Assembly: GCA_022772735.1 (NCBI GenBank)
Contig: JALEZD010000018.1
Span: forward strand, 62,001 to 126,000
Direction of reading: 5' to 3'
Origin: Erysipelotrichaceae bacterium
Lineage (GTDB): Bacteria; Bacillota_I; Bacilli_A; Erysipelotrichales; Erysipelotrichaceae
Length of the DNA: 64,000 nt
The notes under the pieces were generated by a model. It was not told the DNA's origin, made no database searches, and was given only the letters and a program-made list of their open reading frames with translations. Both the position numbers and the translations under genes were made by a program. This document shows, one piece after another, positions 24,457 through 51,503 of this stretch (position 1 is the first letter of the stretch; every line of letters begins with the position of its first letter).

Positions 24457-25419
24457 TTAATTGAAATAATTTTGTTTTGAATGATATACTTTGTCATTAA
24501 ATTTTAAAATTAAAAGTTTTATTTTTCTTTTTAAAGACACATTTAAAAAAACTCTAAAAAAATTTTTATTAAACTTATTTTTAACTATTTTGGATAATTT
24601 AATTTCATTTATTTTCCTTAGTGAAAAACTGTGATATGACAATAGACACATATAAGCATAGTATGTAGATATAAGTGGATATTGTTTACTTTTCAATATA
24701 TTTATTCTTTCCTCAAAAGCCTCTATACTATCTAAATTTTTTAAAGAATATTTACTATTTACAATGCTTCCTTTTCTGACTCTATAAACATATAGTTCCT
24801 TATTCAAATATCCAACTTTATTCGCAGCCAAATACAATTTATACGTAGTATATTCATCTTCATGTAATTTACCAAATGGAAATCTAATATTTTTAAATAA
24901 TTTTTTTTCAAATATTTTCCCATGAGAAACAGTAAAGTTTAAACTATATCCATTATTATTGTCATACAGCTTTTCAATACATTCAAAAGGAGAAAATACC
25001 GTACAAAATTGTGAATCACATATAATTGATTTAAAATTCATATCCTTCTTATATTTTAAACTAGTCACACAAATTTCAACATTCAATTTAACAAGAGTAT
25101 TATACAAATCATATATGAAACTATCCATAACATAATCGTCAGAATCTATAAAAACTATATATTCCCCATTTGATACATCAATTCCAAAATTCCTTGCGTC
25201 CGATAATCCACCATTTTTTTTATTGAATATTTTAAATCTGTCATCATTTATTATTAATTTGCTCGCAATATCGACACTATTATCAACACTTCCATCATCT
25301 ATTAATAATACTTCAATATTTTTATAAGTCTGATTTTTAATACTAATAACACATTCCTCTATATAATTTTCAACATTATAAATTGGAACAATCACGCTAA
25401 TTAAAGGGTTATTCTTCAT
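24457..25419 (-). CDS. Glycosyltransferase family 2
   Basis: A 320-residue GT2 enzyme. It opens with ISVIVPIYNVENYIEE, then LIDDGSVDNS, GGLSDARNFGID and FIDSDD (DxD at about 92-94). The C-terminal third is basic and hydrophobic (SLKRKIKLLILKF). The N-terminal half closely follows the GT2 gene at 985-1899, suggesting an old duplication or independent recruitment of the same subfamily. AAGAGGTGA precedes the ATG, and the gene overlaps the upstream GT2 by 11 bp. A 36-bp gap separates it from capF. Donor sugar unknown; UDP-L-FucNAc is one possibility by context. Confidence 0.9.
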   Translation of the reverse strand: MKNNPLISVIVPIYNVENYIEECVISIKNQTYKNIEVLLIDDGSVDNSVDIASKLIINDDRFKIFNKKNGGLSDARNFGIDVSNGEYIVFIDSDDYVMDSFIYDLYNTLVKLNVEICVTSLKYKKDMNFKSIICDSQFCTVFSPFECIEKLYDNNNGYSLNFTVSHGKIFEKKLFKNIRFPFGKLHEDEYTTYKLYLAANKVGYLNKELYVYRVRKGSIVNSKYSLKNLDSIEAFEERINILKSKQYPLISTYYAYMCLLSYHSFSLRKINEIKLSKIVKNKFNKNFFRVFLNVSLKRKIKLLILKFNDKVYHSKQNYFN

Positions 25420-32070: not shown

Positions 32071-32964
32071 TTAATCCTTCAACATATCTAAATACATATC
32101 TAATCTTGCATTGATGTATCCTGCAAACAGATTTTCCATCGCAGAAAGATTATGTTTTACATGATACTCATCAAATGCGTTGTAATAGGCAATTCTATCT
32201 GTAAACTTAATATCGATAGGTGGAAACCCTGCTTTCATCAATTCAAGATTTACAAGTAGTCTTCCGGTTCTGCCATTACCATCAATGAAAGGATGTATAC
32301 CCTCAAACTCGATATGGAAACGAGCCAGTTTTGTTACGATATGTTCTGTGCTTGCAGCAAAATCACGCAACAGCTGTTCCATCTTCAATTCAATAAGATA
32401 CGGCTGCACAGGTTCATGCTGAGCACCCATAATACGAACTGGAACTCTACGATATACGCCGCGATCTTCTTTCTTATCAGCAAGAACGAGATAGTGAATC
32501 TGTTTTATAATGCTCTCGCTAATCAAAACATTATCTTTCACAAGCTCACTCACAAAATCAAATGCATCTTTATGGCCAACTGCCTCCATATGGTCCTTTA
32601 ATGGTTTCTGGTCAATTGTGAGACCTCGGAGTACCAAGTCTGTTTCTCTCAGGGTAAGTGTATTTCCTTCGATGGCATTAGAGTTGTACGTGTATTCCAC
32701 GATAAACTCCTCATTAAGCCTTGCTACTTCTCCTGCCGTTAAAGGTCTTCTACCGTTCAATTCAATTTTTTTACGGTCGATTTGCGCCAAAAGGCTCTCC
32801 TTTGATTTGTAACGACCATCAGCAGGTTTTTTTGCATCCACAGGAATTTTCCAACCACGTCCTTCCTGGTATGCTCCCGGAATTTTCCCTTCAGCGCAAA
32901 GAACTCGGATTCTTCTATCAGAAATGCCCCATTTTTCAGAAGTCTGTTTTACTGTCATAAACAT
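32071..32964 (-). CDS. Fic-domain protein with N-terminal DNA-binding domain
   Basis: Fic enzymes transfer AMP or another phosphate-containing group to target proteins. This 297-residue protein has the full active motif HPFIDGNGRTGR at 224-235 and, upstream, the autoinhibitory motif SNAIEGN at 95-101, which marks a class II (self-inhibited) Fic. Residues 1-45 look like a MerR/excisionase-type winged helix (TVKQTSEKWGISDRRIRVLC, then GRGWKIP). GGAGGG seven bases before the ATG fixes the start. Codon use and base composition differ sharply from the flanking capsule genes: two 60-base lines inside count 38% and 50% G+C against about 20% in one line of the adjacent polymerase gene. This suggests transfer from another genome. 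No antitoxin gene is adjacent. Confidence 0.93.
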   Translation of the reverse strand: MFMTVKQTSEKWGISDRRIRVLCAEGKIPGAYQEGRGWKIPVDAKKPADGRYKSKESLLAQIDRKKIELNGRRPLTAGEVARLNEEFIVEYTYNSNAIEGNTLTLRETDLVLRGLTIDQKPLKDHMEAVGHKDAFDFVSELVKDNVLISESIIKQIHYLVLADKKEDRGVYRRVPVRIMGAQHEPVQPYLIELKMEQLLRDFAASTEHIVTKLARFHIEFEGIHPFIDGNGRTGRLLVNLELMKAGFPPIDIKFTDRIAYYNAFDEYHVKHNLSAMENLFAGYINARLDMYLDMLKD

Positions 32965-32989: not shown

Positions 32990-33068
32990 AGTATACCACT
33001 TTAACGGAACAATACTAATAATATCGGAATAATATTTCTTAGAATAACGGAATAATATAGGAATAAAC
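32990..33068 (-). promoter_or_regulatory. Promoter of the Fic gene with repeated upstream boxes
   Basis: An extended -10 box (TG-G-TATACT, 32990-32995 for the hexamer) lies before the Fic ribosome site with no good -35. Upstream are three close copies of a CGGAA-CAATA / CGGAATAATA box at about 33004-33014, 33024-33034 and 33047-33057, plus a weaker one at 33059-33068. The 20-23 bp spacing puts the copies on roughly the same DNA face. They are likely binding sites for the Fic protein's own N-terminal domain. Confidence 0.55.
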
Positions 33069-46449: not shown

Positions 46450-47616
46450 ATGCATAACTTTGTTTACGAAATACCTACAAAAGTATACTTTGGTCAAGAT
46501 CAAATAAACAATCTAGGAAAAGAAGTTTTAAAATATGGTAAAAATGTTTTAATTACATATGGTGGAGGTTCAATAATAAAAAACGGACTTTATGATAAAG
46601 TTGTTTCTATTCTTAAAAACCATGACATTAATATTTACAAGCTTTCAGGAATAAAACCAAATCCTAGAATAGAATCTGTAAAAGAAGGTGCAAAAATATG
46701 TAAAGAAAATAATATTGATGTTATTTTAGCAATTGGTGGAGGTTCAACAATTGATGCTTCAAAATTCATTGCAGCAAGTGCTTGTAGTGATATTGATCCT
46801 TGGGATTTTTTCAGTAAAAAAGCCCCTATAACTAGTGCATTACCTATTATCACAATATTAACACTAGCAGCTACTGGATCTGAAATGAACTCAACAGGTG
46901 TATTATCAAATACTCAAACAAATCAAAAAATGGGTAGAGATAGTGAAATGCTTATTCCTAAAGTTTCATTTTTAGATCCAACAAATACATTCACAGTAGA
47001 TAAATATCAAACTGCTTGTGGAAGTGCTGATATACTTGCACATATAATAGAAGTTTATTTCAACAATGAAAATGACTTATATATGCTTGATTCAATAATG
47101 GAAGCTTTAATGAAAACAGTTATTAAGTTTACACCAATTGCACTAAATAAACCTGATGATTACACTGCTCGAGCAAATTTAATGTGGGCTTCATCTTGGG
47201 CAATTAATGGTTTTATTGATGGTGCAAAACAACATTCTTGGAGTGCACATTCAATTGAACATCAACTATCTGCATATTACGATATAACACATGGATTAGG
47301 ACTTGCAATAATAATTCCAAAATGGTTGAATTACTGCCTTAGTGAAAATACTGTTGATAAATATTGTCAGTTTGCCATTAATGTATTTAATATAAATCCA
47401 AATTTAGATAAATTTGAAATTGCAAAATTAGGCATTGAAAAACTTAGTGATTTTTTCTACTCAACATTAAACTTAAATAAAACTCTAAGTGAAATAAATA
47501 TTGATGATACATACTTTGAAGAAATGGCAAAAAAAGCATGTAAAGGTGATAAAATTAACGGTTTTAAAACATTAACAGAAACCGATGTAATAAACATATA
47601 TAAAATGTGTTTGTAA
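46450..47616 (+). CDS. Iron-containing alcohol dehydrogenase (butanol dehydrogenase-like)
   Basis: A 388-residue group III dehydrogenase. VLITYGGGSIIKNGLYDKV and AIGGGSTIDASKFIA bind NAD(P)H; TLAATGSEMNSTGV is family-specific; the iron ligands are in DILAHIIE, SAHSIEHQLSAYYDITHG. The pattern is closest to YqhD/BdhA-type butanol or aldehyde reductases. It probably reduces an aldehyde while recycling a cofactor in fermentation. It is in the operon of the GH2 enzyme, although the metabolic link is not evident. AAGGAG precedes the ATG and a terminator follows the stop codon. Confidence 0.93.
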   Translation: MHNFVYEIPTKVYFGQDQINNLGKEVLKYGKNVLITYGGGSIIKNGLYDKVVSILKNHDINIYKLSGIKPNPRIESVKEGAKICKENNIDVILAIGGGSTIDASKFIAASACSDIDPWDFFSKKAPITSALPIITILTLAATGSEMNSTGVLSNTQTNQKMGRDSEMLIPKVSFLDPTNTFTVDKYQTACGSADILAHIIEVYFNNENDLYMLDSIMEALMKTVIKFTPIALNKPDDYTARANLMWASSWAINGFIDGAKQHSWSAHSIEHQLSAYYDITHGLGLAIIIPKWLNYCLSENTVDKYCQFAINVFNINPNLDKFEIAKLGIEKLSDFFYSTLNLNKTLSEINIDDTYFEEMAKKACKGDKINGFKTLTETDVINIYKMCL

Positions 47617-47631
47617 AGTTATATAACTAAT

Positions 47632-47682
47632 AGAAAATCAAGAGATTAATCATTATGATAATCTTGAAGTTTTCTATTTTTT
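47632..47682 (+). terminator. Rho-independent terminator of the GH2/adh operon
   Basis: AGAAAATCAAG...ATTA pairs with TAATCTTGA..TTTTCT (small bulges, about 15 bp) around a 10-base loop and is followed by ATTTTTTT. The right-hand half is part of a 38-bp repeat that recurs beyond the second Fic gene. Confidence 0.85.
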
Positions 47683-47686
47683 TATC
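47649..47686 (+). repeat. 38-bp direct repeat, copy 1
   Basis: This copy overlaps the adh terminator (its loop, right arm and T run). It matches the copy at 48776-48813 at 35 of 38 positions, same orientation. Together the copies bracket the Fic gene and its control region. Confidence 0.8.
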
Positions 47687-47752
47687 TGTTTCATATATTA
47701 AAAAATTATGTAATATAAAATTTAAATAAAACGATTATATTACTGAAATAAG

Positions 47753-48676
47753 TTATTTATTGTTAGAATAATTAATATCAAATCTATCAAGCAAAAACTT
47801 TATTGTATCCTGACCATCACAACAAGTATCAATTAAATAGGCTGAATCATTTAAAAACTCTTTTAATCCACGATAATAAAAATGCTTTTTCCTATCTTCA
47901 ATTATAAACGGAATTAAATTATGCTTGAGACACTCTTTAAATGCAATTAGTCGTCCAACACGACCATTACCATCTTGAAATGGATGAATACACTCAAATT
48001 TAAAATGAAATGTAATAATATCTTCAAATGATATGTTTTCTTTTTTGTTATAGTCTTCAAGAAGTTGCTTAATATCATTTGATACACTCTTCGGTGAAGA
48101 TGTTTCAATACCACCCACAAAATTTGGTTTCATTTTATATTCACCTACATTGAACCAAGATAAAGATTCATCTTTGGTTCTACTTTTTAATAAATAATGT
48201 AGATGCTTAATAATATCCTCTGTCAAATAATCTTCGGCTATGTCAATGCAATAATCAATCGCCCTAAAATGATTAACTGTTTCAATAATATCATCTACTG
48301 ACATATTTTCTTCAGCACTTAATGTATTTGTTTCAAATATACGCCTTATCTGATCTTCACTTAAAGTACTTCCTTCAATGTGATTGGAATTATAAGTCAT
48401 ACGAATTTGTAACTCATGATATAATCCACCTGATATTCTATGTTCTTTTTCTTCTCTTAATCTTTGAAGAATTGGATTATTCGATACTATAGTGTATAGC
48501 ATATTTTCGTGGCATTCAAAATAAGCACATAACTTTTTAATAACAGTTGATGCAATTTTCTCACCTTTAGAAATTTTAACAAGTGTACGTGATGAAATAT
48601 TCAACAATTTCGTTAAATCTGATTTATTTAAGTTATGTTTTTTTAATAATTGTTTTAATCCATTATATTGATACAT
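47753..48676 (-). CDS. Fic-domain protein with XRE-type N-terminal HTH
   Basis: A 307-residue Fic protein in three parts: residues 1-60 form a Cro/CI-type helix-turn-helix (KSDLTKLLNISSRTLVKISKG), the inhibitory motif SNHIEGS is at 99-105, and the catalytic motif HPFQDGNGRVGR at 233-244. All key Fic residues (His, Asp, Asn, both Arg) are present, so it should be able to modify proteins with AMP or a related group once inhibition is relieved. An ATG at 48682 exists, but AGGAG is spaced properly (6 bases) only for the ATG at 48676. A palindrome surrounds its promoter. The gene is a cargo-like unit between direct repeats. Confidence 0.93.
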   Translation of the reverse strand: MYQYNGLKQLLKKHNLNKSDLTKLLNISSRTLVKISKGEKIASTVIKKLCAYFECHENMLYTIVSNNPILQRLREEKEHRISGGLYHELQIRMTYNSNHIEGSTLSEDQIRRIFETNTLSAEENMSVDDIIETVNHFRAIDYCIDIAEDYLTEDIIKHLHYLLKSRTKDESLSWFNVGEYKMKPNFVGGIETSSPKSVSNDIKQLLEDYNKKENISFEDIITFHFKFECIHPFQDGNGRVGRLIAFKECLKHNLIPFIIEDRKKHFYYRGLKEFLNDSAYLIDTCCDGQDTIKFLLDRFDINYSNNK

Positions 48677-48690
48677 AGTCATCTCCTAAA

Positions 48691-48729
48691 TCTTTACTTA
48701 TTATATCTAAATACGATAAAAAGTAAAGA
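48691..48729 (-). promoter_or_regulatory. Promoter and palindromic operator of the second Fic gene
   Basis: TTTACT (48722-48727) and perfect TATAAT (48700-48705) on the minus strand are 16 bp apart. A 9-bp perfect inverted repeat TCTTTACTT / AAGTAAAGA (48691-48699 and 48721-48729) brackets them, one arm covering the -35 box. This is a classical layout for autorepression by the gene's own HTH domain. Confidence 0.75.
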
Positions 48730-48775
48730 TTTTAAAAGGTTATGTAAATATATTATCTAAAAATTAAAAATATTT

Positions 48776-48813
48776 ATCATTATGGTAATCTTGAAATTTT
48801 CTATTTTTTTATT
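48776..48813 (+). repeat. 38-bp direct repeat, copy 2
   Basis: This copy differs from 47649-47686 at three positions and lacks the left terminator arm. It contributes the -35 box and spacer of the kbl promoter. Confidence 0.8.
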
Positions 48814-48819
48814 TATAAT
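48791..48819 (+). promoter_or_regulatory. kbl operon promoter
   Basis: TTGAAA (48791-48796) and perfect TATAAT (48814-48819) are 17 bp apart. The -35 and nearly all of the spacer are inside copy 2 of the 38-bp repeat. Confidence 0.75.
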
Positions 48820-48869
48820 CCTTTATAAGAGAATGTTTTTTTAAAAATGTACTCGAGAGGTGGACAATA

Positions 48870-50072
48870 ATGACTGATAAAAAGAAAAATATAACTCTAG
48901 AAAATTTCTTAGATGAAAAACTAAATGATTTAAAATCAAAAGGTTTATACAACGAAATTAAAATTTTAGATGGACAAAATGGTGCAGAAATTCAGATAGA
49001 AGGCAAAACTTTAGTCAACTTATCATCAAATAACTATCTTGGATTTGCGACAGATCAAAGAATAAAAAAAGCAGCAGAAGATGCATGCAAAGAATATGGT
49101 GCTGGTGCTGGTGCTGTTAGAAGTATAAATGGAAGTTTAGAAGTTCACAGAAAACTAGAAGAAACAATTGCAAAATTAAAAGGTACAGAAGCTGCAATTG
49201 CTTTTCAATCAGGATTCAACTGTAACATGGGGGCAATTAGTGCTGTAATGAATGAAAAAGATGCAATACTTTCAGACGCATTAAACCATGCATCTATTAT
49301 TGATGGTTGTAGATTATCTAAAGCAAAAATAATTCGTGTAGCCCATTCTGATATGGAAGATTTATACAACAAAGCAAAGGAAGCTCGTGAATCAGGATTA
49401 TTTGAAAAAATCATGTATATAACTGATGGTGTTTTTTCAATGGATGGTGATTTAGCTAAGCTACCAGAAATTGTAAAAATAGCAAAAGAATTTGATTTAA
49501 TTACATATGTTGATGATGCTCATGGTTCTGGAGTTATGGGAAATGGCGCAGGAACAGTAAAACATTTTCATTTAGAGAAAGAAATTGACTTTCAAATGGG
49601 AACTCTTTCAAAAGCAATAGGAGTTGTAGGTGGTTATGTTGCAGGTTCAAAAAAATTAATTGACTGGTTAAAAGTTGCTGCTAGACCATTTTTGTTCTCT
49701 ACTGCACTTACTCCAGCTGATGCTGCTGCTGCAACAAAAGCAATAGAATTAATGATTGATTCAAAAAAACAACAAGAAGCATTATGGAATAATGGCAATT
49801 ATTTAAAAGAGCAATTGAAAGATTTAGGATTTGATATTGGTCAATCAGAAACTCCAATTACCCCAGTAATTTTAAAAGATGAAAAGTTAGCACAAACGTT
49901 TTCTAAAATGCTTTATGAAGAAGGAGTTTATGCTAAGGCTATCGTTTATCCTACTGTACCATTAAATACCGCTCGTATTCGTAATATGCCTACTGCTGCA
50001 CACACAAAAGAGATGTTAGATAAGGCAATAAAGGCTTATGAAAAAGTCGGAAAAAAATTAAATGTTATTTAA
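48870..50072 (+). CDS. kbl: Glycine C-acetyltransferase (2-amino-3-ketobutyrate CoA ligase)
   Basis: A PLP enzyme that splits 2-amino-3-ketobutyrate with CoA into glycine and acetyl-CoA. Its 400 residues match the Kbl/BioF family length. [37 protein letters not shown] (DDAH at 215-218) and the PLP lysine K248 in TLSKAIG are all present. BioF is a possible confusion, but the next gene encodes the threonine dehydrogenase that makes its substrate, which settles the role. GAGGTGG precedes the ATG. Confidence 0.95.
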
Positions 50073-50084
50073 AGGGAGGTAAAT

Positions 50085-51041
50085 ATGAATAGAGTATTGA
50101 TTACAGGTTCTTTAGGACAAATAGGTTCAGAACTATGTACATTTTTAAGACAATATTTAGGAAGTGATAATGTTCTAGCAACCGATATAAGAAAGATAGA
50201 ATCTCATCCTGTATGCACTAATGGAAACTTTAAAATATTAGATGTACTTGATGGTGATAATTTTGAAAAAATTGTTGAAGAATTTAAACCAGACACATTA
50301 ATTCATTTAGCTGCACTTTTATCTGCAACCGCTGAAAAAAATCCACAATTTGCATGGAAGTTAAATATTGATGGTCTATTTACAGCATTAGAAATCTCTA
50401 AGAAATACAATTTAAAATTCTTTATACCTTCTTCAATTGCTGCATTTGGTGATAACACACCAAAAATTGATACACCACAAGATACTATACAAAGACCAAG
50501 TAGTATGTATGGAATAACAAAAGTTTCTGGAGAACTACTATGTGATTATTATCATACAAAATATGGTGTAGACACTAGAAGTTTAAGATTGCCTGGAATA
50601 ATTTCATATGATACTTTACCTGGTGGAGGAACAACAGATTATGCTGTTGAAATATTTTATGATGCCCTTTCAAAAGGTTTGTATAAATGTTATATAGATG
50701 AAAATAGCTCTATGGATATGATGTACATGCCAGATACAATTAAAGCAATCGTACAACTTTTAGAAGCACCATCTGAAAATTTAAAACATCGCAACGCATA
50801 CAATGTAAGTGCAATGAGCTTTACACCAAAACAAATTGCACAATCAATTAAAAAACATTTGCCAAATTTTGAAATTGTATATGAAGTAGATCCAATTAGA
50901 CAAAATATTGCAAATTCTTGGCCAGATAGTATCAATAGTGATTGTGCAAAAAATGAATGGGGTTTTTCTGCAGATTATAAATTAGATGAGATGGTTGAAG
51001 ATATGCTAGCTAAACTAAAAGAAAAAGGTATAGGCTGTTAA
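50085..51041 (+). CDS. tdh: L-threonine 3-dehydrogenase, SDR type
   Basis: A 318-residue extended SDR that oxidises L-threonine to 2-amino-3-ketobutyrate with NAD. The motif GSLGQIGSEL is at 8-17, LIHLAALLSATAEKNP follows, and PSSIAAFG with the catalytic YGITK complete the active site. These blocks characterise the epimerase-like TDH found in Bacillota and Flavobacteria, distinct from the zinc-dependent enterobacterial enzyme. It follows kbl by 12 bp with GGGAGG before the ATG. Confidence 0.93.
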   Translation: MNRVLITGSLGQIGSELCTFLRQYLGSDNVLATDIRKIESHPVCTNGNFKILDVLDGDNFEKIVEEFKPDTLIHLAALLSATAEKNPQFAWKLNIDGLFTALEISKKYNLKFFIPSSIAAFGDNTPKIDTPQDTIQRPSSMYGITKVSGELLCDYYHTKYGVDTRSLRLPGIISYDTLPGGGTTDYAVEIFYDALSKGLYKCYIDENSSMDMMYMPDTIKAIVQLLEAPSENLKHRNAYNVSAMSFTPKQIAQSIKKHLPNFEIVYEVDPIRQNIANSWPDSINSDCAKNEWGFSADYKLDEMVEDMLAKLKEKGIGC

Positions 51042-51503
51042 ATGAAAAAAAAATTATCTAAACTAGAAAATAATAAATTTTTTGTAATTGAGCAATCAGC
51101 ATTACCACAAATATACGAAAAAGTAGTATTCGCAAAAAAACTTTTAGCTAATAAAGAGGCAAAAGATATTCAAGAAGCAATTAAGATTGCAAATATTTCT
51201 CGTTCTGTTTTTTATAAATATAAAGATAAGATACATCTTTTATCAGATACATCAATTGGTAGAAAAGCATCATTAAATATATTGCTTTCACATGAAACAG
51301 GTACACTTTCTAAAGTTTTAGATATATTTGCATCTGCAAAAGTAAACATTTTAACAATATATCAAGGCATACCAATACATCAAATTGCCTCTGTACAATT
51401 AACAATTGATTTAAGTGAAATAAATACAGATATAAAATTGCTTGTTGATAAAATTTCTAATGAAACTTTCGTTTTTAAAGTTGAATTACAAATAGTAGAA
51501 TAA
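51042..51503 (+). CDS. ACT-domain regulator of the PheB/UPF0735 family
   Basis: A 153-residue protein. Residues 30-65 look like a helix-turn-helix (IQEAIKIANISRSVFYKYKD) and 75-153 form an ACT domain (LNILLSHETGTLSKVLDIFASAKVNILTI). ACT domains bind amino acids. UPF0735 proteins occur with amino-acid genes such as hom or pheA in Bacillota. Here it starts on the base after the tdh stop, with only a weak ribosome site, so it is co-translated with the threonine-degrading enzymes. I infer a sensor that adjusts this operon or amino-acid supply to threonine or glycine. Confidence 0.85.
   Translation: MKKKLSKLENNKFFVIEQSALPQIYEKVVFAKKLLANKEAKDIQEAIKIANISRSVFYKYKDKIHLLSDTSIGRKASLNILLSHETGTLSKVLDIFASAKVNILTIYQGIPIHQIASVQLTIDLSEINTDIKLLVDKISNETFVFKVELQIVE

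Follow-up and report, generated by a model that had tools for sequence, protein, structure and literature searches.

Background

Fic proteins of class II are inhibited in cis. Among the closest described systems, CccR of Yersinia pseudotuberculosis is a class II Fic protein with a C-terminal helix-turn-helix (HTH) domain that represses its own gene: its footprint, close to the -35 and -10 boxes, covers inverted repeats of 10 bp with 26 bp between them, to which CccR binds as a dimer. CccR is T6SS-delivered and AMPylates FtsZ, and no partner antitoxin gene is identified in the accessible part of the report (PMC9755527). CbFic2 of Coxiella burnetii, a class II Fic protein with a C-terminal winged HTH, forms dimers on DNA and is stimulated by it; the assays in the accessible part of that report used random DNA, and no operator is described there (PMC10628234). 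EcSofic is a class II Fic protein with a separate 47-aa antitoxin, AS1, and both SoFic and EcSofic-AS1 are class II Fics linked to phage defence (PMC12249575, accessible part), as is the PADLOC candidate PDC-S04. Because the class II protein EcSofic has an antitoxin, reading class II as a mark of antitoxin-free systems is argued against. In a search of the open-licence literature, we found no autoregulated HTH-Fic protein besides CccR, nor any that has its XRE or HTH_17 head at the N-terminus.

Here we analyse a Fic gene, XRE-Fic, located in a window of 64,000 nucleotides (the whole stretch of DNA analysed) from an Erysipelotrichaceae bacterium. By examining its protein, its promoter and the upstream regions of its relatives in bacterial genomes and viral contigs, we propose that XRE-Fic is, with high probability, a single-gene, self-repressing class II Fic module whose HTH would act on mirror-image half-sites. 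The principle itself is already known from CccR, as far as the accessible account of that system goes; what the comparison of sequences appears to add is a second architecture, in which operators are matched to interchangeable N-terminal HTH heads.

The XRE-Fic protein

The gene and its protein-level features, with the ribosome-binding site, are as follows.

47753..48676 (-): XRE-Fic coding sequence, 307 aa (Pfam HTH_26 and Fic; AGGAG before the ATG; start residue shared by relatives)
48683..48687 (-): RBS AGGAG, read directly from the sequence
48512..48658 (-): N-terminal Cro/C1 (XRE) HTH, residues 7-55 (Pfam HTH_26, E 4e-8)
48371..48388 (-): class II inhibitory motif S97-N-H-I-E-G102, residues 97-102, preceding the Fic motif in the same chain
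47951..47986 (-): Fic motif HPFQDGNGRVGR (H231-PFQDGNGRVG-R242), residues 231-242 (Pfam Fic; alignment)

The most likely start codon is the ATG at 48676, which has AGGAG at 48687-48683; relatives begin with MYxY. The Fic domain covers residues 150-245 (Pfam Fic, E 2e-16) and its motif has the form HPFx[D/E]GN[G/K]R. Each of the 12 XRE and 40 HTH_17 proteins examined has an inhibitory motif of the (S/T)xxxE(G/N) type. The predicted structure (AlphaFold, 25-sequence input; pLDDT 92, pTM 0.82) has the Fic fold, with HTH helices at residues 5-53; the HTH is thus N-terminal, not C-terminal as in the CccR type, and the model ends with the Fic core. Its closest solved structure is CdFic of Clostridium difficile (PDB 4x2c/4x2d/4x2e), which has the same fold as the XRE-Fic core (Z 29.9, 1.7 A over 224 residues, 30% identity) and which a PDB sequence search likewise places nearest; the 235-aa CdFic chain aligns only from XRE-Fic residue 66 on and hence has no N-terminal HTH. 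Judged by domains, motifs and predicted fold, XRE-Fic is best described as a class II Fic core with an XRE head, and the fusion of an XRE-type HTH to a class II Fic domain claimed in the initial annotation is borne out by the Pfam HTH_26 and Fic matches, the S97-N-H-I-E-G102 motif and the CdFic-like fold.

In a PADLOC search the protein matches the defence candidate PDC-S04 (E 4e-102) and SoFic (E 4e-22), two of the class II Fics linked to phage defence. Against the SoFic family NF046030 of NCBIfam it scores 32.1 bits, below the curated cut-off of 550, and no informative name for its Fic core came from PHROGs. A C-terminal domain is described for SoFic and a 47-aa antitoxin for EcSofic (PMC12249575, accessible part), whereas no shared small partner gene was seen in the 13 loci listed (ORFs >= 60 aa). 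As to the separate adjacent antitoxin gene that marks the two-gene Fic modules of class I, there is no small gene between XRE-Fic and its neighbours in the window; a smaller or unlinked partner is conceivable.

An inverted repeat interlocked with the promoter

An inverted repeat with perfect 12-bp arms (AAATCTTTACTT / AAGTAAAGATTT) and a 21-bp spacer lies upstream of XRE-Fic at 48732-48688.

48721..48732 (-): left operator half-site (predicted), AAATCTTTACTT, holding the -35; conserved among XRE-Fic relatives only
48722..48727 (-): -35 hexamer TTTACT, inside the left arm (promoter scan)
48700..48705 (-): -10 hexamer TATAAT, 16 bp from the -35 (promoter scan); the right arm starts at the next base
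48688..48699 (-): right operator half-site (predicted), AAGTAAAGATTT, beginning right after the -10; its AAGTAAAG served as alignment anchor

The repeat had originally been described as a 9-bp palindrome enclosing the -35 and -10 boxes. It is present and interlocked with the promoter, but its arms are 12 bp long and perfect, and they do not lie wholly outside the boxes, as the left arm contains the -35. The number of promoter matches as such is no higher than expected for this AT-rich stretch (12 vs 12.0). The chance of such a repeat is p about 0.006 (180 bp upstream, 500 dinucleotide shuffles); at this promoter by itself the repeat is only suggestive, and we find it compelling through its conservation in relatives.

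A role of the repeat at the RNA level was considered and rejected, because the left arm, which contains the -35, should not be transcribed. A regulon was likewise rejected: since the genome has one copy of the full operator and no excess of half-sites (8 vs 18 in the reversed control), the operator is probably private to XRE-Fic, with no visible regulon in its own genome.

As in CccR, an HTH and a class II Fic domain are joined in one chain, and a widely spaced inverted repeat lies over the gene's own promoter. Unlike CccR, which in the accessible part of its report has a C-terminal HTH and half-sites AGATAATCAT, XRE-Fic has an N-terminal XRE domain, CTTTACTT half-sites 21-24 bp apart and a CdFic-like core.

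Survey of relatives

Relatives turned up at the level of the family (60 of 272 genomes, E <= 1e-20), at that of the order (43 of 315, E <= 1e-60) and in a sample of the phylum (30 of 392); they include a protein of Veillonella sp. 3310 with 71% identity to XRE-Fic and one carried by the gut phage NatCom_17901. The survey comprised 102 loci, of which 87 were usable and 15 were dropped before the counts: a pseudogene (L019), loci at contig edges (L018, L023, L098, L108, L113), a duplicate (L002, of L088) and broken or truncated copies (L079, L083, L097, L111, L114, L115, L118, L119). L062, whose match contains stop codons and whose upstream region is intact, was retained. The usable loci present three N-terminal types on one Fic core (XRE, HTH_17 or none), plus a more distant group around the other Fic gene of the window, called Fic1 here. 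A further set, taken from viral contigs once the motifs were settled, contributed the best 80 of 96 relatives (L185 and L238 dropped, having no start codon); with near-copies accounted for, these 80 hold 11 distinct HTH_17 and 5 distinct XRE upstream regions. An earlier viral scan with a single protein as query found no relatives.

Operator type follows HTH type

Relatives with an XRE head have the pair CTTTACTT...AAGTAAAG, that is, paired TCTTTACTT sites 37-40 bp apart (outer edges, 8-bp core). The pair is found in 10 of the 13 XRE relatives with upstream sequence, including those of Veillonella and a human-gut phage and a broken copy, and is absent in the XRE relatives L017, L063 and L064 and the viral L166. 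HTH_17 relatives, with the same Fic core, have TATCGGCAA...TTGCCGATA instead, a pair present in 34 of 41 rows examined, with a separation of 51-58 bp in 31 loci and of 45-47 bp in 3. The standard pair is missing in the other 7 rows: L065 and L113 are cut short, L027-L029 show inverted repeats of other kinds, and L036 and L059 lack any. In one HTH_17 subclade (L028, L029, L031-L033) the motif is CCGGCTG or TATCGGCTG, and L027 has a different palindrome. The shorter separation is confined to another subclade (L060, L077, L109), whose half-sites stand about one helical turn closer than 51-58 bp.

Across the usable genome loci, at <=1 mismatch, the XRE pair occurs in 8/12 XRE promoters and in 0/40 HTH_17, 0/17 HTH-less and 0/18 Fic1-type promoters, and the HTH_17 pair in 28/40 HTH_17 promoters and in 0/12 XRE, 0/17 HTH-less and 0/18 Fic1-type promoters; shuffled upstream regions give a mean of 0.00 pairs at the same stringency. 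With <=2 mismatches the own pair is found in 10/12 XRE and 34/40 HTH_17 promoters, and two HTH_17 rows show an XRE-like pair. Searching for any significant inverted repeat (p <= 0.05), irrespective of motif, gives 6/12 XRE, 29/40 HTH_17 and 0/17 HTH-less promoters. The viral contigs (best 80 of 96) repeat the pattern at <=1 mismatch (XRE 4/5, HTH_17 15/17, HTH-less 0/56); at <=2 mismatches the same 80 give HTH_17 17/17, with an XRE-like pair at the HTH-less near-copies L203-L207 and an HTH_17-like pair at the HTH-less L192 and L215. The sites thus match the HTH and are absent in HTH-less relatives, and therefore operator and HTH seem to change together, as a self-regulator would show. The survey of HTH-Fic promoters for palindromes that the initial annotation had proposed is strongly positive, with operator types tracking HTH types.

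The number of independent events behind this pattern is small. In a quick tree of 85 Fic cores, nine XRE rows form one clade (support 98), and 40 HTH_17 rows form another (support 95) together with the HTH_17 gene remnant L114; the two clades lie within one group (support 95), and the XRE proteins L018 and L063/L064 fall outside the nine-row clade. Because this tree requires only a few HTH changes, the co-variation would rest on few HTH exchanges, the remainder being conservation within clades. Across the nine XRE promoters identity is 1.0 in the right arm (the anchor) and 0.72 in the left arm at fixed spacing, from which L001 and L014 deviate by 1-2 bp, against 0.30 for the stretch 41-100 bp upstream of the right arm; the left arm may be conserved in part because it belongs to the promoter.

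Used as a stand-alone detector, the exact pair CTTTACTT-N20-26-AAGTAAAG failed, being unspecific in AT-rich genomes, with 14 places in 272 genomes vs 15 for the reversed control, 5 of the 14 being at XRE-Fic promoters. The HTH_17 pair TATCGGC-N37-43-GCCGATA occurs 34 times across 29 of 266 genomes; 13 of these occurrences are at HTH-Fic promoters, and the reversed control has 7. Places with TATCGGCAA and TTGCCGATA on both sides are at Fic promoters in 9 of 9 cases (listing read by eye).

Several XRE promoters, not all, have a further half-site in the same orientation 21 to 42 bp upstream, which may reflect higher-order binding. At the phage-borne XRE-Fic genes L055 and viral L163-L165 and L167, the pair is preceded, 22 bp or about two turns upstream, by an added half-site in the same orientation.

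Proposed mechanism and alternatives

At each of the nine XRE promoters the left half-site coincides with the best -35, and the -10 is followed after 0-1 bp by the right half-site, so that the layout is that of a repressor. The half-site centres, about three turns apart, would fit a dimer with well-separated HTHs. We infer that these mirror-image half-sites are contacted by the XRE domains of a Fic dimer (or a higher oligomer); most likely such a dimer covers its own promoter and represses the XRE-Fic gene. Bound XRE-Fic would cover the -35 and the start-site region, keeping transcription low while the protein is present, and a second brake, the N-terminal inhibitory helix, would keep the AMP-transferase off in cis. 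Were a trigger to release either brake, active and presumably toxic Fic protein would accumulate and modify a target. XRE-Fic could conceivably activate rather than repress.

An alternative is that DNA binding mainly sets the enzyme state, the operator assembling an AMPylating or deAMPylating dimer, as has been proposed for CbFic2. Although CbFic2 is indeed stimulated by DNA and dimerises on it, the assays described in the accessible part of the report were made with random DNA (PMC10628234), and the interlock of site and promoter at every one of the nine XRE promoters is simply explained by transcription control only; we consider this reading improbable. About as improbable is that the repeat is the site of another host regulator, or a selected promoter sequence, and that the Fic HTH does something else. 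The left half-site does coincide with the -35 hexamer, and binding by XRE-Fic is a prediction only; against this, the site switches with the HTH on a similar Fic core and is missing in HTH-less relatives, it is kept across genera, in Veillonella and in phages, its mirror-image right arm is not a promoter element, and the half-sites have no excess elsewhere in the genome. That the palindrome arose by chance or is a mobile-repeat remnant, as its modest p of 0.006 and the direct repeats flanking the gene might suggest, is effectively refuted by cross-species conservation, fixed spacing, co-variation with the HTH and recurrence on viral loci (best 80 of 96).

The self-repressing module could be taken further, in a more speculative version that we hold to be unlikely as a whole. 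One chain would then be toxin, antitoxin and repressor at once, with operator occupancy coupled to enzyme state: the promoter-bound dimer would be inhibited or deAMPylating, and loss of DNA contact (upon phage attack or replication arrest) would both derepress the gene and free the AMP-transferase, a design that the lineage would have re-used, pairing a different operator with each of at least two unrelated DNA-binding domains. CbFic2 and XRE-Fic are both class II Fic proteins with an HTH, and in CbFic2, by the accessible account, DNA binding, dimerisation and enzyme activity are coupled. XRE-Fic supplies a defined operator DNA for asking whether DNA binding controls Fic activity, which has been addressed in CbFic2 so far on random DNA in the accessible part of that report.

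More generally, each HTH-Fic gene of this group, bacterial or phage-borne, appears to form a self-repressing module by itself, and the one demonstrated case of CccR becomes a testable rule, namely that the HTH type predicts the operator in this Fic group. The natural exchange of XRE and HTH_17 on one Fic core, with matching operators, amounts to a ready-made domain swap.

The second Fic gene of the window

The window holds another Fic gene, Fic1 (32071-32964), which is a real gene with an HTH_17 domain (Pfam, E 4.6e-6); two genomes of another genus have counterparts of it with 91% identity.

33048-33052, 33025-33029 and 33005-33009: three direct TTCCG repeats upstream of Fic1, spaced 20-23 bp; candidate operator of another geometry

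The repeats stand at about -88, -65 and -45 in 8 of 18 Fic1-type relatives examined (L088-L093, L095 and L096, the window's own locus among the eight). Because Fic1 has its own conserved TTCCG element, both Fic genes of the window appear to have upstream motifs specific to their HTH type. XRE-Fic and Fic1 had been put forward as two independent HTH-Fic genes with apparent self-operators and unrelated DNA-binding domains: HTH_17 is indeed an unrelated HTH, but the motif consists of direct TTCCG repeats and not of a palindrome. The broader suggestion of a design recurring across Fic genes gains support from the comparison of promoters in relatives.

Genomic setting and possible mobility

The neighbours of XRE-Fic (window 46450-51503) are a convergent gene for an iron-type alcohol dehydrogenase (ADH) and a divergent set of kbl, an NAD-dependent dehydrogenase gene and an ACT-domain gene. 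In the same-genus genomes G270 and G271 the ADH gene was found in both, the kbl/Fic region in neither, and no copy of the flanking repeat described below was found near the ADH gene. At two XRE relatives (L015, L017), YefM-YoeB-like pairs, recognised by eye, lie directly upstream of the XRE-Fic gene.

A 41-bp direct repeat (48772-48812 and 47645-47685, same strand; ungapped match 32 of 41) flanks XRE-Fic and its promoter. Its 30-bp core has exactly two copies in the genome (<=3 mismatches; reversed control 0); the downstream copy forms a terminator-like hairpin (z -2.25) and the upstream copy does not. The locus looks like a one-gene insertion of about 1.1 kb with a duplicated flank. An exact 64-bp direct repeat (G069:C25:23381-23444 and 24527-24590) likewise surrounds the HTH_17-Fic gene of L029, with only these two copies in its genome and none in three others of the genus, and L112 has a similar repeat pair, longer but imperfect. 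Such flanking repeats at single Fic genes hint at a shared route of movement without a recombinase gene.
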